A stretch of 43,835 nucleotides of DNA from an uncultured Thermoguttaceae bacterium (GTDB lineage: Bacteria; Planctomycetota; Planctomycetia; Pirellulales; Thermoguttaceae), in contig CALFBP010000094.1 of assembly GCA_937951625.1 (NCBI GenBank), forward strand, positions 1 through 43,835, read 5' to 3'. The notes under the pieces are model-generated. The model had not been told where the DNA came from. It made no database searches and saw nothing but the letters and a program-made list of their open reading frames with translations. Shown in pieces: positions 338-14,125 of the stretch (positions are counted from its first letter, which is position 1; the number at the start of each line of letters is the position of its first letter). The translations under genes and the position numbers were made by a program.

Positions 338-1600
338 TCAACGCCGGCTTGCCTTCACCGCCTCGTAGAGTGCTACGAGGTTTGCCTGTGGGGTATTGGC
401 CTGGACGTTGTGGACGGTGTTGAAGACATAGCCGCCGCCCTGGTTGAAAATGGCGATTCGCTCCAGCACCTCTTTGCGGACTTGCTCGGGCGTGCCGAAG
501 GGGAGCGTTTTCTGAGTGTCCACGCCCCCACCCCAGAAGGTGAGCTTATCGCCGTAGCTGTTCTTCAAACGCCGAGGGTCCATGCCCGCTGCTGAGCACT
601 GCACGGGATTGAGGATGTCGAAGCCGGCGTCGATGATGTCCGGCAGCAGGTCCACGACAGAACCGCAGGAGTGGATGAACGTCTTCCAGGGCGTGTGCTC
701 ATGGACCCAATCGTTCACTTTGCGGTGGAACGGCTGGAAGAGCTTCCGATAGGTCGAGCAGCCGATAAACGGTCCGTTCTGCGTGCCGAAATCGGTGCCG
801 GTGATGAATACCGCGTCCACCCGGTCGCCCACCGCGTCGTAAATCTTGGCCAGATTCGCCAAGGCAATCTCGCATTGGCGACGGAACACCTCGTAGACGT
901 AATCGAATCGAGCCACGGTGCTGACGTACCATTCCTCGACGTCGCGGATGCCTTTGGGCCGCTTCAGCCAAGGCGCGGGGACCAAGGCGATGTCGCCAAA
1001 CGCCGTGCCACCGAAATTGGCCAAAATGGCTTTGTCCGTGTCGCGGTAAAGGCGATCGGCCTGGCGGGCAAAATATTCTAGGGTTTCATCGCTGATCGGG
1101 CCGAATTCCTCCAAATTGTCCTCCGGATTGAGCTTCGCGTCGTCGATCGGTTCTTGACGCACGATCGTATCGAAATAAAAGCCGCCTTTAGGCATGCGAC
1201 CGCTGGGAGGGGCACTTTTATCGCCCTCGGGATACATGAGGATGTCGCCGTTGGGCTCCGGGTCCGTGTTGAACGCCCCTGGCACCAGTACCGGAGTGCC
1301 GTCGAACAACGTCCACGGCTTCCAGTCTTTGTTCTCGAAACCGAACATGGTTTTCGGGCCACCGAGACCGACCACATCCACCCCCAAGGCGTCCATCAGA
1401 TCCGGGGCGATCTCGCCAAGCATCTGGTATGGCTCGACCACCTTAACCGGCGTGCCGGGCGGGTCCAACTTCAGCGCCTGACGCAAAAGATAGACGGAGC
1501 TGACATGCATCCCCGTAACGGCGCTGGCCCCTAGGTCCAAGGGCACATAGTCGGGCTGTTCGTGACGCAGAGCAGCGCGAACGCGTTGGCGCGAGTTCAT
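338..1600 (-). CDS. Uroporphyrinogen decarboxylase-like (URO-D superfamily) protein, probably not HemE
   Basis: Protein of 420 residues starting at an ATG giving MNSRQRVRAALRHEQPDYVP, a typical start for URO-D-like proteins of the methyltransferase branch (MtbA/MtaA-like). An upstream in-frame start would add 11 residues and has no better ribosome site. The long insert between residues about 85 and 160, and the HSCGS motif (H310, C312) in a late barrel strand, fit the branch that handles methyl groups or small ligands. The N-terminal Arg-rich substrate loop of true HemE is not evident. Such genes are multicopy in planctomycetes near sugar-catabolism genes, and their substrates are unknown. 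It is divergent from the sugar MFS carrier, with a shared upstream region of about 180 nt. Confidence 0.75.
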   Translation of the reverse strand: MNSRQRVRAALRHEQPDYVPLDLGASAVTGMHVSSVYLLRQALKLDPPGTPVKVVEPYQMLGEIAPDLMDALGVDVVGLGGPKTMFGFENKDWKPWTLFDGTPVLVPGAFNTDPEPNGDILMYPEGDKSAPPSGRMPKGGFYFDTIVRQEPIDDAKLNPEDNLEEFGPISDETLEYFARQADRLYRDTDKAILANFGGTAFGDIALVPAPWLKRPKGIRDVEEWYVSTVARFDYVYEVFRRQCEIALANLAKIYDAVGDRVDAVFITGTDFGTQNGPFIGCSTYRKLFQPFHRKVNDWVHEHTPWKTFIHSCGSVVDLLPDIIDAGFDILNPVQCSAAGMDPRRLKNSYGDKLTFWGGGVDTQKTLPFGTPEQVRKEVLERIAIFNQGGGYVFNTVHNVQANTPQANLVALYEAVKASRR

Positions 1601-1712
1601 GGCAGCAATCACCATTAGGCAGAAGGCAAGCAAGAATGTACCGAGGCGTCACAACGAGTGATCGCGGCTCGGGTCGCCATTCGGGACTTCATTGGATTGC
1701 CGCCTTGCCGTC

Positions 1713-1742
1713 TTGTCAAGGGTCACCCCAAGGCGCTACGAT
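1713..1742 (+). promoter_or_regulatory. Sigma70-type promoter for the sugar MFS gene
   Basis: TTGTCA (1713-1718) and TACGAT (1737-1742) are separated by 18 nt. The start of transcription should fall near 1749, just ahead of the GGGAGG ribosome site (1768-1773) and the GTG at 1781. This argues against the longer frame that opens at 1658, which would begin upstream of the promoter. Confidence 0.5.
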
Positions 1743-1780
1743 GGGAGCCGAACCTTCTGACAAACCTGGGAGGATCGCCT

Positions 1781-3175
1781 GTGTCCAGCAGCGTGGAACA
1801 TCGCAACGGGAGCGTCGCTTATGTGTATCTCTTGGCCGTGGTGGCGGCCTTGGGCGGGCTGTTGTTCGGGTACGATACGGCAGTCATTTCCGGCGCTATC
1901 GGGTTTCTAACCACCCATTTCAACCTCGATCCCGCCTTTGAAAAAGGCTGGGCCGCGGCAAGCGTGCTCTTGGGGTGTGCGGCGGGGGCGGCGGTGGCCG
2001 GATTCTTGAGCGACGCCTTGGGCCGTAAAAAGATGCTGCTGCTCGCCGGCGCATTGTTCCTCCTCTCGGCGTTGGGTACCGCGCTGCCCCAGACGGTCGC
2101 GGTGTTCGTCGTCTTCCGCCTGCTGGGCGGCGTGGCCATTGGCGTGGCCTCGATCAGCTCACCGATGTACATCGCCGAGGTCTCCCCTGCCCGGATCCGC
2201 GGCCGCATGGTCTCGATCAACCAGTTTGCCATCGTTTCCGGTATTTTGGCTTCCTACTTCGTCAACCTCCTCATCGCTTGGTATGGCGACTCCGTGGCTC
2301 CCGATTGGAACGTGCAATACGGTTGGCGGTGGATGTTCGGGCTTTGTGCCCTGCCTGCCGTGGTTTTTTTAGTGCTCTTGACCTTCGTTCCCGAAAGTCC
2401 GCGGTGGCTCGTCAAGCAAGGCTGTCCCGACAAGGCCGAATCGATCTTGGAGCGTATCCACGGTCCTGAAGCGGCCAGGAACGAATTGGCCGTCATCCAA
2501 CAAGCCATTGCCGAGGAAAGCGGCTCCCTCCGCCAACTTTTCGAGCCGGGAATGCGCGTGGCGTTCACGATTGGCGTGGTGCTTGCGGTGCTCCAACAAA
2601 TCACGGGCATCAACGTATTCCTGTATTTCGCTCCAGAAATTTTCAAGAAGATGGGATCCGGGGTGAACGCCGCTTTGCTTCAGACGGTCGTGGTAGGCGC
2701 GGTGAACATCCTGTTTACGGTAATCGCCATCCGCACCGTCGACCGCTGGGGACGCAAGCCGTTGATGCTCGTTGGCTCGGCGGGCATGGGCGCGACGCTT
2801 TTAGGCATGGGAGCGGCCGCCTATTGGGGCAGGGCCGACCTTTGGGTGTTGATTTTCATTTTGGGTTACATTGCCTGTTTTGCCCTTTCGGTCGGGCCGG
2901 TCACTTGGGTGATCCTTTCCGAGATTTTCCCCACACGAATCCGCGGTCGGGCCATGGCCATCGCCACGGTCTGTCTCTGGTTGGCCGATTTCCTCGTCAC
3001 CCAGACCTTTCCCATGATGGATGAGAACGCATGGCTGGTCGCCACGTTTCGCCGCGCCTTCCCGTTCCTCCTCTACGCCTTTTTCTGCGTCGTTTCGCTC
3101 GTCTTCGTGTGGCGATACGTGCCGGAGACGAAGGGTAGGACGCTAGAGGAGATCGAGCGGAGCTGGAGGCGGTAA
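1781..3175 (+). CDS. MFS sugar transporter, sugar-porter (SP) family
   Basis: 464-residue inner-membrane carrier with about 12 transmembrane helices. Sugar-porter signatures are present: GGLLFGYDTAVISGA in helix 1, DALGRKKM in the first cytoplasmic loop, PESPRWL before the central loop, DRWGRKPL in the second half, and PETKGRTLEEIE at the C-terminus. The family moves hexoses, pentoses or inositol with protons (XylE/GalP/AraE-like); the substrate cannot be read from sequence. The GTG start at 1781 is chosen because GGGAGG lies 8 nt upstream and the promoter sits between this GTG and the more upstream in-frame ATG. The gene stands alone, divergent from the URO-D-like gene and convergent with the polyferredoxin gene. 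Confidence 0.9.
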   Translation: MSSSVEHRNGSVAYVYLLAVVAALGGLLFGYDTAVISGAIGFLTTHFNLDPAFEKGWAAASVLLGCAAGAAVAGFLSDALGRKKMLLLAGALFLLSALGTALPQTVAVFVVFRLLGGVAIGVASISSPMYIAEVSPARIRGRMVSINQFAIVSGILASYFVNLLIAWYGDSVAPDWNVQYGWRWMFGLCALPAVVFLVLLTFVPESPRWLVKQGCPDKAESILERIHGPEAARNELAVIQQAIAEESGSLRQLFEPGMRVAFTIGVVLAVLQQITGINVFLYFAPEIFKKMGSGVNAALLQTVVVGAVNILFTVIAIRTVDRWGRKPLMLVGSAGMGATLLGMGAAAYWGRADLWVLIFILGYIACFALSVGPVTWVILSEIFPTRIRGRAMAIATVCLWLADFLVTQTFPMMDENAWLVATFRRAFPFLLYAFFCVVSLVFVWRYVPETKGRTLEEIERSWRR

Positions 3176-3194
3176 GGCAGCGACGCAATCCGCC

Positions 3195-3219
3195 GACGCC
3201 CTGCAACGAACCGGGCGTC
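3195..3219. terminator. Inverted repeat between convergent genes, possible bidirectional terminator
   Basis: GACGCCC (3195-3201) and GGGCGTC (3213-3219) form a perfect 7-bp stem with an 11-nt loop between the MFS stop and the polyferredoxin stop. No T-tract follows on either strand, so the terminator role is only inferred from position. Confidence 0.3.
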
Positions 3220-4549
3220 ATCGCAGAGGGCGAACCATGATGGCCTTCCTTGGCGCGGTCGGACAGGCGACCTGACAGGCGCCGCAGCCCGTGCAGCGTT
3301 GGGAATCGACCCGCACCGCCAGCGTATATTCCTCTTCCGACCAGACGGTGGCAATCGCCTCGTAAGGGCAGCAGTTGCGGCAAATGTTGCATTCGTGGTT
3401 GTCGGTCAGGAGGCAAAGCTCGATGTCCACCGTGGCCAGGCCCATCCGCGCAGTCTTTTTCTCGTTTGTTGCCAGCCACGCAATGGCCCCACTGGGGCAC
3501 GCCTCCCCGCAGCGGTGGCAATCTTCACGGCAGTAGCCCGGCTCGAAACCCACTTTGGGGCACAAAAGCCCGGAGAGTCCGTTTTCGCCAAGATCGGGAC
3601 GAAGGATGCTCGTGGGACACGCGCGGAGGCAATTGCCGCAGCGGACGCAGACGGCTCGGAATCGGATTTCGTCGATCGCGCCCGGCGGCCGGATCACGCC
3701 AGCCGCCGCGGCGACGCGGGGTCGGACGACCCATGCCCACGCTGCACCCAGCCCCCCGGCCAACACAACCCGTCGTGCCAAAGGCCAACCGTCATCTCGC
3801 GTTTTGTTTGCCAGTCGAGTCTCTTCTCTGATCGCCGGAGTGTTTGTGCCGAATGGCAAAGCCTGGCGCAAAGCCGACAACAGTTCTTGGGTCGCCCCTA
3901 AAGGACACACCCTCATGCACCACACCCCAGGGGCGAAAAGGCTCAATCCCAGCACGGCCACCAGTCCCAGCGCCGAGAGTAAGGTTGTCGTGGCCAACGG
4001 TTCGTCCCAAGATGCACCGACGAAGGCCGCTAACAGGGCCAAGGGATCGAGCCAAAGAAAAAGCGAGTAGCCAAACACCGCGCCGCCGAACGTCAACAGT
4101 GCAAACCAATGCCCCAGAGGCGCCTTAGTCAGAAGACGCCAAGGCCTGGCATTCCACGTGCGTCGCGGAAGCTTCGTCGCGGCGGCCGACGTGGTCATGC
4201 GGCGGCGAGGGATGAGGCCCCCGGTCGCCTCGCACAACAGCCCCGTGGGGCACAGCCAACGGCAGAACCACCGCCGCCGAAAGAAGGCGATGAGCAGCAC
4301 GGGCGCGGCGAGCAACGTCGTCCAGCCGATCGCTTTCACGGCCAGCGTCGATCCGACGGCCACAAATGGACTGACGGCCACGAGCGTCGCCGCAAGCCGG
4401 GCCGACGAAGGAAACAACCAGATGGCGATAATAACGAGGAACAGAGCGAGGCAACGAACGGTCAGACGGACTCGAGAGCATGTGGGGCTCTCGACCACCG
4501 TCCGCAATCGCGATCCATTTGATCGTCCTTCGTTTGGGAACTGCGACAT
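3218..4549 (-). CDS. Membrane polyferredoxin: NapH-like membrane part fused to NapG/MauM-like ferredoxin part
   Basis: 443 residues from the ATG at 4549 (start MSQFPNEG). An alternative ATG at 4597 would give 459. The first half has several hydrophobic helices and two CxxxCPxG signatures (FCRWLCPTG, WCMRVCPLG), as in the NapH/NosR/CcoG type of membrane [4Fe-4S] protein. Next comes ARRVVLAGG, which resembles the twin-arginine leader of NapG but is internal here, and then a soluble part with RPPGAIDEIRF and several ferredoxin Cys groups (CVRCGNCLRACP, CHRCGEACP, CNICRNCCP, CTGCGACQVACP). The likely role is electron transfer between the quinone pool and a periplasmic or cytosolic partner. It is the third gene of the cluster sulfatase > radical SAM > polyferredoxin; the partner is inferred only from this order. 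Confidence 0.8.
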   Translation of the reverse strand: MSQFPNEGRSNGSRLRTVVESPTCSRVRLTVRCLALFLVIIAIWLFPSSARLAATLVAVSPFVAVGSTLAVKAIGWTTLLAAPVLLIAFFRRRWFCRWLCPTGLLCEATGGLIPRRRMTTSAAATKLPRRTWNARPWRLLTKAPLGHWFALLTFGGAVFGYSLFLWLDPLALLAAFVGASWDEPLATTTLLSALGLVAVLGLSLFAPGVWCMRVCPLGATQELLSALRQALPFGTNTPAIREETRLANKTRDDGWPLARRVVLAGGLGAAWAWVVRPRVAAAAGVIRPPGAIDEIRFRAVCVRCGNCLRACPTSILRPDLGENGLSGLLCPKVGFEPGYCREDCHRCGEACPSGAIAWLATNEKKTARMGLATVDIELCLLTDNHECNICRNCCPYEAIATVWSEEEYTLAVRVDSQRCTGCGACQVACPTAPRKAIMVRPLR

Positions 4550-4659
4550 GCTTTTTTTCCCGCAGGACTGCGAAAGCCATGTTCTCGACTTTGCCATATT
4601 CAGGCCTGGATTGCAAAGCGGTCGCAGCCGAGGGCCTGCCAACGCTCCTCCCTGCCGCC

Positions 4660-5550
4660 TCACAAGAACGCTTTGCTGCAATTCGCGCAGAGGGCGATTT
4701 CGGCCTGGCGAGCTTGGCGGTGTTGCCGGCGGACTTCGCGATAAGCAGGGCCGTCGAAGATCTCGCGGATCGTGGTCGAACCGTCCAATCGCCCCAACAG
4801 GTGCTGGCCATCGTAGTCCAGGCAGCAGAGGGCGACCTCACCGCCGGCGAGGATCGTAAACGTCCGCCAAAGCCGCGAACATGGCTTTCGAATCGCGGTG
4901 CCGCGGATCGGCTGGCCCTCGCTGGCCCAGTTGTGGATCTTTCCAAAGGAGAACTCATCGACCCGTTTCGAAAGGGCCTTCATGGTCGCCGTGCGGTCGG
5001 TAGTGCTACAACAAGCCACGCCGATTTTGAGTGGGGCCCCCAGTTCGTCGCGGACCCTCACCAACTGCTCCACGTTGCCGACCACACGGTCGAAGCGGAG
5101 GGGGCGGCGGATGGCCTCGAATTCCTCTCGCGTCGCGCCGTCGAAGCTGATCTTGATCTCGTCCAACCCGGCTTGGATCAGCCCTCGGGCCCGCTCGGGC
5201 GTCAACAGCGAGCCGTTGGAAAAAATCTTCACCTTGGGGATGCCCTTCTGTTTGGCATAGTGGATCCGTTCTTCCAGATGCTTGTCCAAAAGCGGTTCGC
5301 CGAAGTTATGAAGGTGGATCTCCTGGCACCTCCAGGCGGCGCATTCGTCCACGATGCGAGCGAAGAGGTTGTCGTCCATGCGCCCGACGGGGCGATTCAT
5401 CCGCTGGTGCGGGCAGATGACGCACCGGGCATTGCAGGCGTTGGTCGTTTCGATGCGGACCACGGCCGGAAATCGGCTCCGCATCACATCCAAAGCCCCG
5501 CCGATCGAGCGGCAAACGATTTGGGAGGCAAGAATATGGAGTTTCTTCAT
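4660..5550 (-). CDS. Radical SAM protein with short C-terminal Cys-rich (SPASM/twitch-like) region
   Basis: 296 residues from an ATG giving MKKLHILASQIV; a TTG 45 nt further upstream is the alternative, but GAGG precedes the ATG by 11 nt. The CxxxCxxC cluster motif is TNACNARCVICPHQRM (C39, C43, C46), after the strand AVVRIETT. Glycine- and charge-rich SAM-binding strands follow (IHLHNFGEPLLD, KVKIFSNGSLLT, EIKISFDGAT). The C-terminus carries further cysteines (PCSRLW, ALCCLDYDG, CANCSKAF), enough for one auxiliary cluster of the twitch or reduced SPASM kind. It lies 51 nt after the sulfatase stop (7 nt with the TTG start), so the two are probably co-transcribed. The length is short for an anaerobic sulfatase maturase (usually about 370-420), so that role is not claimed. 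Confidence 0.82.
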   Translation of the reverse strand: MKKLHILASQIVCRSIGGALDVMRSRFPAVVRIETTNACNARCVICPHQRMNRPVGRMDDNLFARIVDECAAWRCQEIHLHNFGEPLLDKHLEERIHYAKQKGIPKVKIFSNGSLLTPERARGLIQAGLDEIKISFDGATREEFEAIRRPLRFDRVVGNVEQLVRVRDELGAPLKIGVACCSTTDRTATMKALSKRVDEFSFGKIHNWASEGQPIRGTAIRKPCSRLWRTFTILAGGEVALCCLDYDGQHLLGRLDGSTTIREIFDGPAYREVRRQHRQARQAEIALCANCSKAFL

Positions 5551-5601: not shown

Positions 5602-6993
5602 TCAGTCGGCCTTGTCCTGTCTGCGTTTCTTTTTTGCGGCCTTTTTGGGAGCATCGGCCTTTTGGGGCTTTGCCTCGGTCGCGCCGCCGGCGGGATGGAG
5701 CTTGTCGAGAACGGCTTGCAACTGGCGGCGTGCAACCGTGGCGTCCGCCGTCTCGGCGTCGGGGAGCATCAATTTCTCCGTGTACGGGGCATCGGACATA
5801 TCAAACAACTCGCCGCGCTGGTTGAGCTTCCAACGGTCATTGCGGGCGTACCACTGGGCGCCGAGCTGGACGAAGACCCACTCTCGCGGGCTGCCCTTTT
5901 CGCCGCGGAGCTGTGGTGCGAAGCTGTGGCTGTCCAAGATCACGCCCTCAGGCGGTTTCACGCCGGCGACCTCGGCGAAGGTGGCGAAGAAGTCGCTGAA
6001 GTCCACGAGGTCGTTGAGCACGCGGCCGGCGGGGGTGACGCCCTTCCAGTTGACGATCAGCGGCACGCGGCTGCCGCCCTCCAACAGCGAGCCCTTACCG
6101 CCATCCACCAGGCGGCCGTGGACCTTGTGCCTGCCCACGCTCCCATTGTCGCCGGTGAAAACGATCAACGTCCTCTCGCGGAGTCCCAGCGCATCGATTT
6201 CGGCAACGAGCTTGCCAACCAGCTTATCGAGATACGCGACGTTGTCAGCATAGAACTGCGGGGCTTTGTCTTTCGTTTTGGTCGGTTGTGCTTCGCGGCT
6301 GTCGGGCGTGGGGAGGATCGGGCCGTGGATCAGCGTCATCGGGTAATACAGGAAAAAGGGCTCGTGTCGATGGCGGCGGATAAAATCCACCGCGAACTCG
6401 TGCAAGAGGTCGGGTCCGTAGCTTTTCTCAGTGACGGGCACGCGCTGGCCGTTCTTGTTCAGCGCTGGCCCCCAATAACGCTCGCCCCAGGGCCGTTCCC
6501 AGCGGAGGAATTCGTCGAAGCCCCAGGCCTGCGCCTCGGCCGGCGTGCTCAAGTACTCCAGTTGGTTCCATTTGCCGGACAATCCCGTGGCGTAACCAGC
6601 CTGTTTCAACACCTTGGCGATCGAGATTTCTTTATCCGGTTTGGCGGCGGGCCCGCTTTCGTTGGTGAGCACCCCGGTGCGGAAGGCGTAGCGGCCGAAC
6701 ATGCCCAGGGCCCGCGACGGCCCACAAAGCGGAGCGGAAAAGCACCGCTCGAAGCGAATCCCGCCGGCCGCCAGGGCATCCAGGTTCGGCGTCTTGAACT
6801 CGCCGCCGTAGCAGCTCACGCCGGGAATGCCGTAATCGTCGGCCAGGATGAAGACGATGTTCGGCTTCAATCCCGGCGTGATCCCCTCCGCCGCTTCCAC
6901 ACCACGGTCCGGCCATGACGCCAACCCAACGAAGACGACGGCAAGCGCGAGACTGATTTGCGTCCGAGACCCGCGTCGTTCCTGTTGCCCCAT
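5602..6993 (-). CDS. Exported sulfatase, Cys-type (formylglycine-dependent)
   Basis: 463 residues from the ATG at 6993; AGGGGGG sits about 8 nt upstream, which favours it over a GTG three codons earlier. An N-terminal signal peptide (basic start, hydrophobic SLALAVVFVGLA, cleavage near GVEAAEG) indicates export. The metal motif is NIVFILADDYG (D52, D53), and the formylglycine signature is CGPSR (C90) in CFSAPLCGPSRALG. FTGDNGS supplies later metal ligands. The family hydrolyses sulfate esters, usually of polysaccharides; the substrate cannot be told. The protein ends in a strongly basic Lys/Ala tail (about the last 25 residues) not needed by the fold. First gene of the leftward cluster with the radical SAM protein and polyferredoxin. 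The cysteine needs a maturase: FGE or a radical SAM anSME. Confidence 0.9.
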   Translation of the reverse strand: MGQQERRGSRTQISLALAVVFVGLASWPDRGVEAAEGITPGLKPNIVFILADDYGIPGVSCYGGEFKTPNLDALAAGGIRFERCFSAPLCGPSRALGMFGRYAFRTGVLTNESGPAAKPDKEISIAKVLKQAGYATGLSGKWNQLEYLSTPAEAQAWGFDEFLRWERPWGERYWGPALNKNGQRVPVTEKSYGPDLLHEFAVDFIRRHRHEPFFLYYPMTLIHGPILPTPDSREAQPTKTKDKAPQFYADNVAYLDKLVGKLVAEIDALGLRERTLIVFTGDNGSVGRHKVHGRLVDGGKGSLLEGGSRVPLIVNWKGVTPAGRVLNDLVDFSDFFATFAEVAGVKPPEGVILDSHSFAPQLRGEKGSPREWVFVQLGAQWYARNDRWKLNQRGELFDMSDAPYTEKLMLPDAETADATVARRQLQAVLDKLHPAGGATEAKPQKADAPKKAAKKKRRQDKAD

Positions 6994-7002
6994 TTTCGTC
7001 AC

Positions 7003-7313
7003 CCCCCTAGGCCCCCAAGGATTACCTCCGCGATGGCCTTCCTATTTTATCGCCCGGGTGGCCAGCAACGCGCAAAGGGCAATGCAAGGCAAGACGCAAG
7101 ACGGAAGCGATGATCTGAACGTTGAAAGGCCAAAGCATCGACGAAATCCTTTTTCCGTTCGCGCCGGCGCTGCCACCCAGTACTTCTCGCCTTGGTTGAT
7201 CGCTGTAATTCCCTCCCCGAGTGTTCACTGTAGCGGTCGCCGACTGAAGGCGTCAATGGCTTACTTAACGCCACTTCCGTGGAGCGCAAAAGCGCAATGG
7301 AAGACACGCTAAT
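7003..7313. other. Intergenic region between the Nudix and sulfatase genes, no gene seen
   Basis: 311 nt between two leftward genes. It holds the candidate sulfatase promoter (7227-7256). It also holds a small dyad at 7275-7302 (TTCC, GCGC-aaaa-GCGC, GGAA) just after the Nudix stop, which could weakly end or stabilise the Nudix transcript. No frame with a ribosome site and recognisable product was seen. Confidence 0.5.
7227..7256 (-). promoter_or_regulatory. Candidate promoter for the sulfatase cluster
   Basis: On the minus strand, TTGACG (7256-7251) and TACAGT (7232-7227) are 18 nt apart. Transcription would start near 7220, leaving a leader of about 225 nt before the sulfatase ATG. The hexamers are good, but no further support exists. 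Confidence 0.35.
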
Positions 7314-7808
7314 TCATGGCAATGACCTTTGGCGTCTCGGCAACGCGCGCACCTTTGGTTGTTGGCTGGACTGTTCCGGATGGGCTTGGTTACTTGCCGG
7401 GGCCCCTTGAAACGTTTCTCGGTCGGCAAGAAGAACCCCGATTGCCTGTTGATTGGCCGGGGGAAAGCAAAAGTTGCGCAAGTCGGCGATAGGAACCCAG
7501 CGAAAGGGCGCGGTGGGGGACTTCGCCGGATGGATCGGCTCGCAGGCGAAGAAGTGCAAGCATACCTGGCCGTGCTCGTATTCGTGGTTGATCACGCACA
7601 GTGGATCGCCGACGCGAATTTCCAGACCGGTTTCCTCGCGGCATTCGCGGGCCGCGGCCTGGGCGGGCGATTCTTCCGGAAAAATCTTCCCGCCGGGGAA
7701 CTCCCAGTAACCGGCCAACACGGCTGCGGCGGGGCGCTGCCCAATCAATACCCGCCCTTCGTGACGCACCACGGCGACGGCAATTTGCGAAACCTTCGCG
7801 TTGCCCAT
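7314..7808 (-). CDS. MutT-type Nudix hydrolase (8-oxo-dGTP diphosphatase-like)
   Basis: 164 residues beginning MGNAKVSQIAVAVVRHEGRV. AAGGAAAAGG lies just upstream of this ATG; the frame stays open for nearly 100 more codons upstream, but that part lacks similarity to the family. The complete Nudix box G-x5-E-x7-REUxEExGU is visible, starting at GGKIFPEES and ending at RECREETGL. VLIGQRPAAAVLAGYWEFPGG before it is typical of MutT enzymes that clean oxidised guanine nucleotides from the pool. The second half (HEYEHGQVCLHFFAC, FRWVPIADL) also matches MutT. The last 25 residues are Gln/Pro-rich and probably disordered. The gene is divergent from the methyltransferase-glutaminase gene. Confidence 0.85.
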   Translation of the reverse strand: MGNAKVSQIAVAVVRHEGRVLIGQRPAAAVLAGYWEFPGGKIFPEESPAQAAARECREETGLEIRVGDPLCVINHEYEHGQVCLHFFACEPIHPAKSPTAPFRWVPIADLRNFCFPPANQQAIGVLLADRETFQGAPASNQAHPEQSSQQPKVRALPRRQRSLP

Positions 7809-7900
7809 CAGCCTTTTCCTTGGGACTCTTGAGGCTCCATATTGGCCCGGATGGAGCGGGATAAGGGCTCGCGAGGGAATCTTACCATCGCAACGCATTG

Positions 7901-7929
7901 TGGCAACCGGTTTATGGGCATGGTATAGT
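7901..7929 (+). promoter_or_regulatory. Candidate extended -10 promoter for the methyltransferase-glutaminase gene
   Basis: TGGTATAGT (7921-7929) is an extended -10 element (TGN plus TATAGT). The -35 at 17 nt spacing, TGGCAA (7901-7906), is poor, as expected when the -10 is extended. The start of the gene is 58 nt downstream. Confidence 0.4.
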
Positions 7930-7986
7930 CGAAACTCGACCCGAACCCACCCTTGATTTCGAATCCGCAGAAATGGTGGCTCCGCT

Positions 7987-10716
7987 ATGAAACGTCTGAC
8001 TTGGTTTTGGCAATGCGTCGCTCTGGTTCTTGGACTGGTCGCCTGGTTGGGGGCGGGCGCGGTCCTGTCGCAGGAAAAGAGTGTCCGGCCTGGAATCAAT
8101 CACCCCTATGAAAAAGTCGATTTGCAGGCCCAAATCCGAAGTTTGGAAAGCGCCAGCCGGGACGTAGTGAAAAGAAAGGACGAAATCCTTGCCGCCTGCG
8201 GCTTGGAACCGGGGATGCACGTGGCTGACATCGGGGCCGGCACCGGCCTGTTCACGCGGCTTTTCGCCCCCAAAGTGGCTCCAGGTGGGAAAGTCTACGC
8301 CGTCGATATCAGCAAGGCGTTCGTCGACCACATCGGAACAACCTGCCGCGAACAGAAGATCGAGAACGTCGAGGTAATTCTCTGCCCGGCGGATTCGACC
8401 GGCTTGCCGCCGCAGTCGATCGACCTGGCCTTCCTCTGCGACGTGTACCATCACTTGGAGTTCCCACAAAAGACGCTGGCTTCCATCCGCCAGGCCTTGC
8501 GGCCCGGCGGGCGGCTCGTGGTGGTCGAGTTTCACAAGTCGGGCAAGATGAAGGACCACGTTCGGGCCGACCAGGAGACGTTCACGCAGGAAATCGTGGC
8601 TGCCGGTTTCCACCTCAGCGACAGCCTGCCGTTGGGCGAGAAGCAATACCTTCTGCGATTTCAGAAGAGTGGGCTGCGGCCGCCGGCCGTCCCGCTGGTC
8701 GTTCACGATCCCTACTTCAGCATCTGGTCGTTCAGCGACCGCCTGGCCGACGATTGGCCGCGGCATTGGACCGGGGCGATCCACGCCCTGTCGAGCATGG
8801 TGCGGATCGACGGCAAGACATACCGTTTGATGGGAATGGAGCCCCGCGAGTGTCCGGCCTTGCCGCAGGTGGGATGCAAGGTCCACGCCACGCGGACGGT
8901 CTACGATTTTGAAGGCGCCGGCATCCGCTTGCAGATCGTCTTCCTTTCGCCACTTTATCCAAACGACCTGGAACTCGTGGGGCGTCCTGTGACGTACTTG
9001 AGCTGGACACTTCGCTCCATCGACGGTGACGAGCACGACGTGCAGCTCTACTATGACAACTCCGCGGAGCTGGTCGTCAACGAGGCCTCGCAAGCGGTGG
9101 TTTGGGCCCGGCCCAAGATCGACGGCCTGGACGTGCTCAGCATGGGTTCGGCCGAGCAGCCGGTGTTGCAGAAAAAGGGCGACAACCTGCGGATCGACTG
9201 GGGGCATCTGTATGTGGCCGCGCCCGAGTCGGCAAAAGCGATGACTGTGGTAACGGATCATGCCTCGGCGCGCGAAGGGTTTGCCAGCCGAGGGCAGCTT
9301 CCCAAGGCAGATGATCCACGGATGCCGCGGCCCGCCCATGACCACTGGCCGGTTGCCGCCGTGGCCTTCGATTTGGGAAAGGTCGGCGCGACGCACGTCG
9401 AACGTTGGATCATGCTGGCTTACGACGACGAATACTCCATCGAGTACCTCGGGCAAAAACTCCGTCCGTGGTGGCGCCGCAACGGAGCCGACGCCGCGGA
9501 GCTGCTTCGCACTGCGGCCCAAGCGAGGATCGAGCTGTACCAGGACGAGTTCGATCTCGATTTCTCTCGTTCCGCGAGCTTGGCAGGCGGCGCCGAGTAC
9601 GCGGACCTCTGCGCCTTGGCCTTTCGCCAGGCGATAGGGGCCCACAAGCTCGTGGCCGGCCCGAAGGGCGAGCCGATGCTGTTTTCCAAGGAGTGTTTCT
9701 CCAATGGCTGCATTGGGACCGTGGACGTGTTGTATCCGGCGTCGCCGATTTTCGCCCTATTCAACAACGAATTGCTGAAGGCCACGGTCACGCCAGTCTT
9801 CGAGTACGCCATGACCGACCGCTGGAAGTTCCCTTTCGCTCCGCACGACTTGGGCACCTATCCGCTGGCCAACGGGCAGGTCTATGGCGGTGGGGAGAAA
9901 AGCGAGGAAAATCAGATGCCGGTGGAGGAGTCGGGCAACATGCTCCTCGTGGCCGCGGTGATCTCGAAGCTCGACGGAAACACGAAGTACGCCGAGCGTT
10001 ACTGGCGTCTGCTGGAGCGATGGGCCAAGTATCTTCAGGAGAAGGGGCTCGATCCGGAGAACCAGCTTTGCACCGACGACTTCGCCGGCCACTTGGCCCA
10101 CAACGCCAATCTCTCGCTGAAGGCGATCCTCGCGTTAGCGGCGTATGCGCGGATGTGCGAGATGGCGGGCAAGCCCGACGAGGCGAAGCAATATCGCTTG
10201 ACCGCTGAACAGTTCGCCAAGGAGTGGATCAAGTTGGCCGACGATGGCGATCACTACCGACTGGCCTTCGACAAGCCTGGCACGTGGAGCCAGAAATACA
10301 ACCTGGTGTGGGATAAGCTCCTCGATCTGAACCTCTTTCCGCCGGAGGTGGCTCGCAAGGAAATCGCCTTCTACAAGACGAAGCTCAACCCCTACGGCCT
10401 GCCGCTGGACAATCGGGCGCTGTATACCAAGACGGATTGGGAGGTGTGGACCGCCACGTTGGCCGAGTCGCGGGCCGATTTCGACGCCTTGATGAACCCG
10501 GTGTATCGCTTCGTCCACGAGACGCCCGACCGGGTGCCGTTGACCGACTGGTACATGACCGACACGGGCAAACTCAAGGGCTTCCGTGCCCGGCCTGTGA
10601 TCGGCGGCGTGTTCATCAAGATGCTCGACGACCCGGCGACGTGGAGGAACTGGATCACACGCCAGCGCAGCGCACCGGCGCGGCCGACCGCGTCTTCGTC
10701 TTCATCCGGGAAGTGA
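7987..10716 (+). CDS. Exported fusion: SAM-dependent methyltransferase domain plus glutaminase-A-like (DUF4965/DUF1793) domain
   Basis: 909 residues in one uninterrupted frame. Residues 1-29 form a signal peptide (MKRLTWFWQ followed by a hydrophobic run and an Ala-rich cleavage region). Residues about 60-227 are a class I methyltransferase: motif I VADIGAGTGLFTR (79-91), acidic ribose-binding VYAVDIS (D107), then LCDVYHHLEFPQKTL and LRPGGRLVVVEF. From residue 231 the protein changes to RPPAVPLVVHDPYFSIWS, the usual beginning of glutaminase A/DUF4965 proteins, with LYPNDLELVGRPVTYLSW, SFSNG-like FSKECFSNGCIGTVD, and the all-alpha DUF1793 barrel to the end (TDDFAGHLAHNANLS, YNLVWDKLL, LPLDNRALYTKTDWE). 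Standalone forms of both families are often secreted. As a fusion the second domain has no signal peptide of its own. Activity of a methyltransferase outside the cytoplasm is unexplained. Confidence 0.85.
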   Translation: MKRLTWFWQCVALVLGLVAWLGAGAVLSQEKSVRPGINHPYEKVDLQAQIRSLESASRDVVKRKDEILAACGLEPGMHVADIGAGTGLFTRLFAPKVAPGGKVYAVDISKAFVDHIGTTCREQKIENVEVILCPADSTGLPPQSIDLAFLCDVYHHLEFPQKTLASIRQALRPGGRLVVVEFHKSGKMKDHVRADQETFTQEIVAAGFHLSDSLPLGEKQYLLRFQKSGLRPPAVPLVVHDPYFSIWSFSDRLADDWPRHWTGAIHALSSMVRIDGKTYRLMGMEPRECPALPQVGCKVHATRTVYDFEGAGIRLQIVFLSPLYPNDLELVGRPVTYLSWTLRSIDGDEHDVQLYYDNSAELVVNEASQAVVWARPKIDGLDVLSMGSAEQPVLQKKGDNLRIDWGHLYVAAPESAKAMTVVTDHASAREGFASRGQLPKADDPRMPRPAHDHWPVAAVAFDLGKVGATHVERWIMLAYDDEYSIEYLGQKLRPWWRRNGADAAELLRTAAQARIELYQDEFDLDFSRSASLAGGAEYADLCALAFRQAIGAHKLVAGPKGEPMLFSKECFSNGCIGTVDVLYPASPIFALFNNELLKATVTPVFEYAMTDRWKFPFAPHDLGTYPLANGQVYGGGEKSEENQMPVEESGNMLLVAAVISKLDGNTKYAERYWRLLERWAKYLQEKGLDPENQLCTDDFAGHLAHNANLSLKAILALAAYARMCEMAGKPDEAKQYRLTAEQFAKEWIKLADDGDHYRLAFDKPGTWSQKYNLVWDKLLDLNLFPPEVARKEIAFYKTKLNPYGLPLDNRALYTKTDWEVWTATLAESRADFDALMNPVYRFVHETPDRVPLTDWYMTDTGKLKGFRARPVIGGVFIKMLDDPATWRNWITRQRSAPARPTASSSSSGK

Positions 10717-11911: not shown

Positions 11912-11969
11912 TTGCGGCCTCCGCCGGCTACCCGCCTCTGCCCCAATGGCTTCCAGGAGCATTGTCCTC

Positions 11970-12530
11970 ATGCATCATGATCTAGACCCGACTCTGTTTC
12001 AGCATTGGCCCGTCTGGCTGGTCAGCATCACTTTGGTTATTGCGGCGGTGATTGACGGCTGGAAACTGAAGGTGCCCAACTGGCTCACCTTTCCGATGAT
12101 TGTGTCCGGCTGGATTTACAGCGGGATATTTTTCGGTTGGGAGGGGCTGGGGTGGAGCCTGACAGGCACCGCAGTCGGACTGGGACTGTTGCTCCCTGCT
12201 TATGCGATTGGGGGAATGGGGGCGGGCGACGTGAAGCTCCTCGCCGGCGTGGGGGCCTGGATGGGGGGAACCACGACTTTCTTTGCGTTCTGCGTCTCGG
12301 CCATCGTGGGCGGCATCATCGCCTTGGCAATGATTGCCGTGCGACGGAATTGGCTCCACCACGGGCGGCAATTCCTCGCCATTGCGACCGAGATCCTAGT
12401 GATTCGCAATCCCTCGGAACTCGCGGCCATTGCCGCCGACCGGAAAAGCTCGATGACCCTCCTACCGTATGGGATCCCCATCGCGATTGGAACTATCGCT
12501 TACTTTGCATGGAATGGAATGCTGCTATGA
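11970..12530 (+). CDS. Prepilin peptidase, A24 family (TadV/CpaA-like)
   Basis: 186 residues from the ATG at 11970, which has CCAGGAG about 10 nt upstream; an in-frame ATG 24 nt earlier has no ribosome site. It is an integral membrane aspartic protease with about six helices. The two catalytic aspartates are D29 in AAVIDGWKLKVPNWL and D87 in the GxGD motif GGMGAGDVKLLAG. It lacks the N-terminal methylation domain of the large PilD enzymes, as usual for TadV/CpaA. It should cleave the Flp and TadE prepilin-like leaders. The stop codon overlaps the next start (ATGA), so translation of the TadE-like gene is probably coupled. Confidence 0.9.
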   Translation: MHHDLDPTLFQHWPVWLVSITLVIAAVIDGWKLKVPNWLTFPMIVSGWIYSGIFFGWEGLGWSLTGTAVGLGLLLPAYAIGGMGAGDVKLLAGVGAWMGGTTTFFAFCVSAIVGGIIALAMIAVRRNWLHHGRQFLAIATEILVIRNPSELAAIAADRKSSMTLLPYGIPIAIGTIAYFAWNGMLL

Positions 12531-12952
12531 GACTGGAGAAACCCTACCGGTTGTGTCGAAGAAAACGACAAGGGGCTGCGGCGGTGGAATTTGCAGTCGT
12601 GGCCCCGCTGTTCTTCCTCATGGTGTTCGGGATGATCGAGTTTGGACGCATGATCATGGTCCAACAGGTCATAACCAACGCATCACGCGAGGGGGCGAGG
12701 ATGGCCGTGGTGGATGGTGCGACGACCGCCGGGGTGAAAACTGCGGTGCAAAACTATCTCCTGGGCGCGTCCATTAACGGTGCCGAGGTTACGGTTAATC
12801 CAGACCCACCGACTTCTGCCGGTTATGGCGATCCTGTCACGGTTACCGTCTCTGTCAGTTTTAATCAAGTTAGCTGGCTTCCGTCGCCAATGTTCTTAGG
12901 CGGGCAAGCGTTGACAGCAACCACCGCGATGCGTCGAGAGACGGTCCAGTAA
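12527..12952 (+). CDS. TadE-like pseudopilin
   Basis: 141 residues. A basic leader (MRLEKPYRLCRRKRQG) precedes AAAVEFAVVAPLFFLMVFGM. G16, then four residues, then E21-F22 matches the TadE prepilin-like processing site. The conserved IEFGRMIMVQQVITNASREG follows the helix. The remaining 90 residues are a small beta-rich domain. TadE proteins are minor pseudopilins needed for Flp assembly. The start overlaps the prepilin peptidase stop by four bases, and the stop TAA is followed directly by the ATG of cpaB. Only one TadE-like gene is present; some tad loci carry two or three. Confidence 0.88.
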   Translation: MRLEKPYRLCRRKRQGAAAVEFAVVAPLFFLMVFGMIEFGRMIMVQQVITNASREGARMAVVDGATTAGVKTAVQNYLLGASINGAEVTVNPDPPTSAGYGDPVTVTVSVSFNQVSWLPSPMFLGGQALTATTAMRRETVQ

Positions 12953-14125
12953 ATGCGACCTAAATCCTTTATTCTTCTCGTCTTAGCGCTTGGATGCGGG
13001 GTCGTGGCCTCGATCGGGATCACGCAGGTCATGGCCAAGCGAGGGGGCGATGCCGCCCCTATGGAAACGGAATCCGTGGTGGTCGCCGTTGCTGACATCC
13101 CCATGGGCGATCCCGTTTCGCCTCAGCTCGTCAAGCTTGAGGATTGGCCTAAGGACAAGGTACCCAAGGGTGCTTTGAGAAGCCTGGAGGAACTGCAAAA
13201 TCGCCGACCCAAAACGCGCATTTTTGCTGGCTCTCCCATCCTTGATAACCAACTGTTGGGCAAGGGTGTTGTCGATCAAGGGGCGTCCGACGTGATCCCG
13301 AAGGGCATGCGGGTCGTCGCCGTCAAGGTCGATGCGGTGAGTGGGAATGCGAACTTGATTCGGCCGGGCGATCGGGTTGACGTGCTCGTTCACTTGCAAT
13401 CGGGTGGGGGCGACCTCAGCAAGACGGTCACGAAGACCATTTTGCAAGACATCAAAGTCTTCGCCGTGGACAACGTTTGGGCGACGGCGAGCGGCGAGCG
13501 GTCCATCGTGGCAAAGACGATCTCGCTTTTGGTCACTCCGGCTCAAGCCGAGAAAGTCACTTTGGCCTCGGAGATGGGCAATGTCCGTCTCGTCATGCGA
13601 AGCCCCGATGACAACGAACAAGCAAAGGTTCCCGGGGCGGTGGCGATGGACGTGCTCGGCGGGAACACCAGTGGCGGTGTGGATAGGATGTTGAGCGTCC
13701 TGTTGCCTTCGAAACCTGCGGCCAAGGCAAAACCCAATCCTATGAATGGTCTCTTAGGGTTGCTCAGTGGGGCACGAGAATCGAAACCGCGAGACGAGGC
13801 CTCTCCTCGAATATCCGAAACCGAAAAGGCTAAACCTCCGGCGAATGTGTATCGAGTGCGAATCCTGTCCGATTCCGAACCTGTCGAGACGGTTCTGGAA
13901 TACACGGGCGAGGGCAATCCGCCACAATCCGAAACGAGTTTCCTACACTGGCGGGCGACCACAAGGCCCGGCACCGACGTAAACGGAAGCCCGCTCGCTC
14001 AGCCACCTTCGGAGCCCTCCAAACCGTTGCCGCCGGACAGTCTTTCCGAGCCCTCGCAGTACCCATCCGCTGAGGCCGAGCAGGAGGAAACGGCCAATCC
14101 CGCCAAACCACATCTTAGCGAGTGA
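12953..14125 (+). CDS. cpaB: Flp pilus assembly protein CpaB/RcpC
   Basis: 390 residues. An N-terminal membrane anchor (FILLVLALGCGVVASIGI) is followed by the SAF-type domain (VVVAVADIPMGDPVSPQLV, residues about 42-110). The RcpC/CpaB core comes next: VIPKGMRVVAVKVDAVSG, then NLIRPGDRVDVLVHLQ, SIVAKTISLLVTPAQAEKV and NVRLVMRSPDD. CpaB helps the secretin work, perhaps by binding peptidoglycan. The last 150 residues are an unusual low-complexity extension rich in Pro, Ser, Glu and Lys, with one ordered-looking patch (NVYRVRILSDSEPVETVLEY). The ATG directly abuts the TadE stop. Its own stop overlaps a GTG, though the next gene more likely starts at 14146. Confidence 0.9.
   Translation: MRPKSFILLVLALGCGVVASIGITQVMAKRGGDAAPMETESVVVAVADIPMGDPVSPQLVKLEDWPKDKVPKGALRSLEELQNRRPKTRIFAGSPILDNQLLGKGVVDQGASDVIPKGMRVVAVKVDAVSGNANLIRPGDRVDVLVHLQSGGGDLSKTVTKTILQDIKVFAVDNVWATASGERSIVAKTISLLVTPAQAEKVTLASEMGNVRLVMRSPDDNEQAKVPGAVAMDVLGGNTSGGVDRMLSVLLPSKPAAKAKPNPMNGLLGLLSGARESKPRDEASPRISETEKAKPPANVYRVRILSDSEPVETVLEYTGEGNPPQSETSFLHWRATTRPGTDVNGSPLAQPPSEPSKPLPPDSLSEPSQYPSAEAEQEETANPAKPHLSE

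Follow-up and report, generated by a model that had tools for sequence, protein, structure and literature searches.

An apparently exported methyltransferase fused to a GtaA-type six-hairpin enzyme in a Thermoguttaceae bacterium belongs to a conserved bacterial family

A contig of 43,835 nucleotides from an uncultured Thermoguttaceae bacterium (assembly GCA_937951625.1, contig CALFBP010000094.1; the whole stretch is hereafter called the window) carries a gene in which a signal peptide, a class I methyltransferase (MT) domain and a GtaA-type six-hairpin enzyme are joined in one reading frame (Table 1). We consider it fairly probable, judging from sequence, that the product has two enzyme activities and is exported by Sec, its MT domain working outside the cytoplasmic membrane. 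The signal peptide would send the chain out unfolded, after which the N-terminal domain would fold as an S-adenosylmethionine (SAM)-binding class I MT and methylate a small extracytoplasmic acceptor. The C-terminal six-hairpin module would be secreted and work independently, most likely as a glycoside hydrolase, as a published homologue suggests. A bound cofactor is not expected to pass through Sec export, and SAM would therefore have to be supplied from outside the protein; in relatives a dedicated permease may hypothetically supply it. The cytoplasmic membrane is commonly taken to be the limit of SAM chemistry, and the fusion of an exported MT to a secreted enzyme raises the question of the route that SAM would take past the inner membrane. 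The first-pass annotation of this DNA had already called an exported SAM enzyme puzzling; the puzzle is now larger, since a whole conserved family looks exported.

Table 1. Features of the fused gene in the window
Feature	Position	Strand	Basis
Fused gene: signal peptide, class I MT, GtaA-type six-hairpin enzyme; 909 aa	7987..10716	+	Translation, Pfam, second fused copy (G018/L147)
Signal peptide, residues 1-28, MKRLTWFWQCVALVLGLVAWLGAGAVLS	7987..8070	+	Sequence; cleavage site by eye
MT domain, residues 32-229, opening with the family motif SVxPGIN	8080..8673	+	Pfam, alignment, AlphaFold2, Foldseek
Motif I (SAM site) VADIGAGTG, residues 79-87	8221..8247	+	D81, G83, G85 and G87 100% conserved in 61 aligned members
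D107, acidic residue closing the second strand	8305..8307	+	97% conserved
Family signature CDVYHHLEFP, residues 151-160 (consensus CDTYHHFE[FY]P)	8437..8466	+	Y154, H155 and H156 100%, E158 98% conserved
DUF4964, residues 220-286	8644..8844	+	Pfam, E 2e-21
MT/GtaA junction KSGLR, residues 227-231	8665..8679	+	Alignment with stand-alone copies and G018
DUF5127, residues 302-511	8890..9519	+	Pfam, E 1.6e-55
GtaA six-helical-hairpin domain, residues 535-878	9589..10620	+	Pfam, E 6e-143

Translation of the gene was free of stops, in a frame that is open from 7957 and in which the ATG at 7987 is the sole in-frame ATG ahead of residue 77. Together with Pfam it bore out the earlier description of a 909-residue frame with a signal peptide, a class I MT and a second enzyme, and motif I, which had also been reported, was found intact. 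Methyltransf_31 matched residues 74-202 (E 3e-18) at 66 bits against a curated cut-off of 27, and Methyltransf_11 scored 64 bits against 21. Among the NCBIfam models listed none reached its cut-off, the top one being a UbiE model at 49 bits against 378. In the second half every domain of the glutaminase A family (PF16335 with DUF4964 and DUF5127) scored above its cut-off and in the right order. The glutaminase-A-like character that the annotation had given this module thus stands insofar as GtaA_6_Hairpin matches there, while neither of the models that it named, DUF4965 and DUF1793, was matched by Pfam. The two halves meet without a long linker: the MT stops at the same point as its stand-alone counterparts (...YLLRFxK), and GtaA sets in at the residues with which the mature form of stand-alone copies begins (LRPPAVPLV).

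A domain-architecture search, one of the checks that the first-pass annotation had proposed, showed that the MT-GtaA pair recurs in another genus of Thermoguttaceae. Matches running from MT into GtaA were present in 2 of the 119 genomes sampled from the window's family, namely the window genome (G000) and G018 (locus L147, Thermoguttaceae metagenome-assembled genome (MAG) A05DMB26). The same two were found among the matches listed for 396 genomes of the order, and the window genome only among 392 genomes of the phylum, the three samples overlapping. In G018 the signal peptide, MT and GtaA share a single frame until a gap of Ns at about codon 646. The two copies are 61.9% identical in the MT and 69.8% in GtaA, the latter compared to residue 640; nonsynonymous and synonymous divergence (dN/dS) was 0.31/1.33 for MT and 0.24/1.24 for GtaA (NG86, with dS near saturation), an indication of apparent purifying selection on both halves. 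A candidate third fusion in G054 lies on a contig that stops at residue 539. Another candidate, in G019, was rejected on finding that the GtaA copy there is stand-alone with an RR-type signal. This copy (L055) opens with MQRRNFLQSALALG, a Tat-like signal, and GtaA relatives may differ in export route.

Both halves also occur as separate proteins. Stand-alone MTs were found in 6 of the 119 family-sample genomes at E <= 1e-30 (G063, G016, G045, G003, G058 and G002) and, by hand count, in at least 74 of the 392 phylum-sample genomes at E <= 1e-35; in the order and phylum samples the two best candidates per genome were scored, so that counts of stand-alone genes are lower bounds. In each of the stand-alone GtaA N-termini that we read (L002, L006, L007, L010 and L055), a signal peptide of its own precedes an RxP start. 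The fusion therefore looks like a complete exported MT placed ahead of the mature portion of a GtaA-type enzyme that was itself complete and exported. In an MT tree whose bootstrap values are not fully settled, the two fused copies are sisters (98/94) nested among stand-alone MTs, with L087 and then L088, L089 and L145 around them, and a single fusion event in an ancestor common to the two genera would be the simplest reading. Directly downstream of L087, the closest stand-alone relative, is a long open reading frame (ORF; 6718-10161, plus strand) with an internal signal-peptide-like start and, after it, another MT-type motif by eye, VVHLGCSDGK.

The window protein carries SVRPGIN, CDVYHHLEFP and HVRAD behind a signal-like start, which, together with the tree, makes it a member of an apparently exported family that we name after SVxPGIN and CDTYHHFE. 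We assembled this family from 59 loci (a sixtieth stretch, L146, held no MT) and 80 named loci, with ten duplicates, giving 129 distinct loci. The named loci were the best 80 of 487 confirmed and the distribution is a lower bound. They come from records of Planctomycetota, Verrucomicrobiota, Pseudomonadota, Acidobacteriota and Kiritimatiellota, nearly all of them MAGs and possibly mis-binned; 3 of the 80 titles lack the word 'MAG', including that of Blastopirellula marina DSM 3645 (L211). No account of the family was found among the papers listed on planctomycete exported MTs, on periplasmic MTs or SAM transporters, or on MTs accompanying sulfide/persulfide enzymes, and a planctomycete subcellular proteome, in the part of the article available, uses 'methyltransferase' once and holds nothing on it (PMC8567305). 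The family is widespread and conserved but apparently unstudied.

Among 61 aligned members, N38, E54, R58, D81, G83, G85, G87, G101, L140, D146, Y154, H155, H156, A170, G175, R193, E202 and F225 are 100% conserved. The window MT retains all of them, as well as H191-R193 and D107, whose position we take to be the ribose contact in class I enzymes. AlphaFold2, given 51 sequences, modelled the domain with a mean pLDDT of 95.4 and a pTM of 0.92, and alignment, model and Foldseek agree on a Rossmann-like class I fold with a glycine-rich motif I and an acidic residue after strand 2. The closest solved fold is 3dh0, a class I MT of Aquifex aeolicus whose PDB title states no function (Foldseek TM 0.82/0.88), which is also the top profile match (E 9e-28). 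It is only about 24% identical, however, with FTFHEL in place of the family's DTYHHF, and leaves the SVxPGIN start outside the alignment. Further down the fold matches, at rank 47 and 14% identity, is 3ocj of Bordetella parapertussis, a 'possible exported protein' whose likeness to our protein in this respect comes from its title only. Since motif I and D107 are essentially invariant and selection appears to be purifying, an enzyme is a simpler account of the MT domain than a binding or sensing module.

The N-terminus of the window protein, MKRLTWFWQCVALVLGLVAWLGAGAVLSQE, reads by eye as a Sec-type signal peptide; it is 31% identical to its G018 counterpart, which is likewise hydrophobic. A twin-arginine motif is absent from it (KR, no RR). 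Across the family, a hydrophobic N-terminal segment was found in 117 of the 129 distinct loci as against 215 of 526 control ORFs, by a hydropathy heuristic that requires an in-frame start codon 18-60 codons ahead of SVxPGIN. The controls were neighbouring ORFs scanned over an equal number of codons with the best start picked too, and they include true membrane and exported proteins. Over equal ranges measured from the frame opening, the counts were 104/129 vs 202/526 (60 codons) and 114/129 vs 262/526 (100 codons). A previous count of 129/129 vs 192/462 was discarded, its scan range having been longer for MTs than for controls. These corrections leave our estimate unchanged because most of the weight is held by the conserved motif behind the segment and by fusions to other domains. 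In nine of the 12 exceptions the MT is preceded by a further domain or a long run of sequence (L099, L109, L133, L136, L142, L197, L199, L219 and L226), which leaves L168, L205 and L216. Lipobox-like patterns in 23 of the 129 loci, against RR in only 2 (both patterns are loose), argue for Sec rather than Tat; Tat export with bound SAM was rejected on the same RR count and the lack of RR in the window. The window genome also encodes, at G000:C25:25366-26343 (L058), a second MT-like protein, which begins much like a signal peptide and has DVYHEFSHP as a variant of the signature; more than one exported MT type may therefore exist there.

The strongest sequence argument for location comes from a fused relative. 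L105 joins signal peptide, MT, CCP_MauG (di-haem cytochrome c peroxidase) and esterase by Pfam, with CxxCH motifs in the sequence, and c-type cytochromes receive their haem only outside the cytoplasm. Other partners identified by Pfam are an esterase (BD-FAE) and a 3-keto-disaccharide hydrolase ahead of the MT in L099 (and in L109 by near-identical sequence), DsrE in L092 and L121, rhodanese in L132, GH5 in L161 and an endonuclease/exonuclease/phosphatase in L189. By blastp, MT-DsrE extends to 11 of the 80 named loci (L170 duplicating L103) and MT-rhodanese to L158 and L195. A BLH-phosphatase-like-MT arrangement in L133 (Pfam E 4e-4, under the curated cut-off) is shared, by blastp to L133, with L197, L199, L219 and L226. 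Additional sequence in L159 and L186 had no Pfam match. An apparently exported, motif-complete family with one member fused to a cytochrome peroxidase makes the assumption that SAM chemistry stops at the membrane testable, for example in Blastopirellula marina.

For the GtaA half, the proposal of an amidase in the first-pass annotation was not supported by published work. A Streptomyces homologue (WP_074995790) showed no glutaminase and weak beta-galactosidase activity, a fungal DUF4964/5127/4965/1793 protein (Phchr2|3002168) took up the label of an activity probe for glycosidases, and the authors propose a glycoside hydrolase function in the part of the article available (PMC9668830). By analogy, a 'glutaminase/amidase' label for the window's module seems doubtful. 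Like the glutaminase A or DUF4964-DUF5127-DUF4965-DUF1793 proteins, the window protein is matched by the DUF4964, DUF5127 and GtaA hairpin models; it differs in having an MT, which the available part of that article does not mention. Invariant columns among 21 aligned GtaA sequences include K340 E341, D393, E419 E420, D461 and D469 D470 (A3 numbering). A PDB search with the 21-sequence profile returned no relative up to E 1.

Elsewhere in the family, the genes beside the MT hint at its acceptor. At 1e-40, at least one of SQR, PDO-rhodanese, TauE and CoADR-rhodanese was present in 20 of 139 loci (19 distinct), with three or four of these genes in L092, L093, L106, L110, L112, L118 and L121; the queries were taken from L092 and L093, which therefore match by construction. 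The protein names are ones that we presume from our reading of the sequences and from known families. Of the 118 direct neighbours, nine ORFs that were short or overlapped others were omitted; among the other 109, Pfam matched Pyr_redox_2 and rhodanese in 8 each and TauE in 2. In a control of 58 genomes, 7 of 18 close SQR copies (>=57% identity, query included) lay within 0.9 kb of an MT and 11 did not; one copy at 30% was set aside, and since the genomes share ancestry, the cases outnumber the events behind them. Of the 17 tree rows with a sulfur label, 13 fell in one part, with 4 label changes against 8.4 in shuffles, under a broad label that rhodanese, ArsR or BLH alone could satisfy. Pseudomonadota loci showed no consistent sulfur context with the sulfur and permease queries, nor by eye in six of 18 loci (16 of them Pseudomonadota); the exceptions were an MBL-fold gene in the vicinity of L150 and L218, an oxidoreductase matched weakly near L220 and, at L203, a divergent permease. 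The genomic context thus points to sulfide, persulfide or a thiol as the acceptor in the sulfur-operon clade, and the operons thereby single out a class of candidate acceptors. For the window's own clade and its vicinity on the tree, the context points instead to carbohydrate breakdown. Human METTL7B (TMT1B) is a SAM enzyme that resembles the sulfur-clade reading in its activity: it methylates H2S and alkyl thiols, according to the part of the source available (PMC7921093). Four members of the sulfur clade (L093, L121, L166 and L190) carry, after the MT, a His-rich domain starting RADQxVFHxLLxHH that possibly binds metal; Pfam gave no match to it in L093.

A candidate for SAM supply is likewise found next to some family members. 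In 10 of the 139 loci the next gene downstream, in the same orientation and no more than 160 bases from the matched end, encodes a LAT/APC-type amino-acid permease, one of the ten (L217) at only 32% identity; in L223 the permease is 669 bases downstream. Every NCBIfam match to it was below cut-off, and its nearest relatives in PDB are LAT-type amino-acid transporters. Among the 58 control genomes, 6 of 15 permease copies (>=40% identity, query included) were directly downstream of an MT and 9 were not. On the tree the permease label, comprising four rows and set before L123 and L130 were recognised, did not cluster beyond chance (82 of 500 shuffles were as low), a pattern that would fit repeated association or loss. 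Such permeases commonly carry ordinary amino acids, which counts against a role as SAM carrier. Our hypothesis that the linked permease moves SAM or S-adenosylhomocysteine (SAH) draws on analogy with yeast Sam3 and Candida Gap4, amino-acid-permease proteins reported to transport SAM in the part of the source available (PMC5177730). Those are fungal importers, however, whereas the bacterial permease is closest in PDB to LAT-type proteins. The linked permease gives a specific candidate for the SAM carrier that such a system would need. That members of this family carry out SAM-dependent methylation outside the cytoplasm, with a SAM supply of their own, is in our view a tentative proposal. Similarly speculative is the fuller picture in which exported MTs of Planctomycetes and some other bacteria methylate outside the cytoplasm, a downstream permease supplies SAM or exchanges SAM for SAH in some lineages, the sulfur clade acts on sulfide, persulfide or thiols, and the window version is tied to a secreted glycosidase.

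Several observations weigh against extracytoplasmic methylation by the window protein itself. We know of no report that SAM reaches the bacterial periplasm. The SQR query had no match in the window genome or G018, although its positive control worked, and the linked permease had only distant matches in either, the best in the window genome being 26% identical over its length. A sulfur role and permease-borne SAM supply were accordingly not accepted for the window gene, and the two contexts speak for the family. The window MT departs from conserved positions, including T153V, F157L, D181E, R184K, G187K and S189K, and about five residues before HVRAx are missing in both fused copies; these changes may alter or weaken activity. 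The export heuristic also passes the 215 control ORFs given above, and the predicted GtaA structure was unusable (pLDDT 32).

Some of these points would be explained if the MT fold transferred no methyl group and bound another ligand, or SAM or SAH from lysed cells, and so served the glycosidase in sensing, scavenging or substrate binding. The problem of SAM supply would then vanish, and the fold has a precedent for other chemistry in SpnF, a [4+2]-cyclase at rank 3 among the fold matches. We think this unlikely, though worth keeping in mind, as the window copy, for all its changes at family-conserved positions, retains motif I, D107, Y154-H155-H156 and H191-R193, and dN in the fused MT is well under dS. 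Somewhat less probable still is an MT that modifies the sugars handled by its fused partner, through O- or ester-methylation, for instance by capping released saccharides or cell-envelope glycans. It would suit the carbohydrate-active partners (GtaA, GH5 and the 3-keto-disaccharide hydrolases of L099 and L109) and the protein directly upstream of the MT in L089, which by eye resembles a 3-keto-disaccharide hydrolase. Other clades, however, pair the MT with sulfur enzymes, a cytochrome peroxidase or an endonuclease/exonuclease/phosphatase, so that a partner may not name the acceptor, and none of the NCBIfam models listed was matched above its cut-off.

That the protein stays in the cytoplasm, its N-terminal segment being an anchor or translation starting downstream, appears very improbable. 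We know of no SAM pool outside the cytoplasm and the evidence for export is heuristic, but SVxPGIN directly follows the segment and is conserved family-wide, so that the start should lie upstream of it. A hydrophobic start precedes the motif in most loci, lipobox-like forms and a cytochrome c fusion exist in the family, and the stand-alone GtaA copies that we read have signal peptides of their own. An assembly or frameshift artefact is the least credible explanation by far: the window does come from a draft genome of 105 contigs, but the same fusion and junction occur in another genus at 62% (MT) and 70% (GtaA) identity, and with this junction shared by G018 an assembly error at 8600-8760 is very unlikely. 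A Sec-exported bifunctional enzyme is thus the reading that we prefer.

The surroundings of the window gene resemble neither of the contexts described above, with no operon apparent around it and no SQR, PDO-rhodanese, TauE or CoADR beside it. Searched neighbours were NUDIX, sulfatase and radical SAM/SPASM genes on the minus strand and, downstream, genes for a prepilin peptidase and RcpC. At 11946-14125, an ORF that by eye is TadE-like separates the prepilin peptidase gene from the RcpC/CpaB gene, and the group suggests a Flp/Tad pilus cluster. Uroporphyrinogen-decarboxylase-like, sugar-transporter-like and polyferredoxin-like ORFs were seen by eye at 338-4681. Finally, in the window's clade, the protein directly upstream of the stand-alone MT of L089 looks by eye like an exported 3-keto-disaccharide hydrolase, an arrangement that echoes the L099 and L109 fusions.

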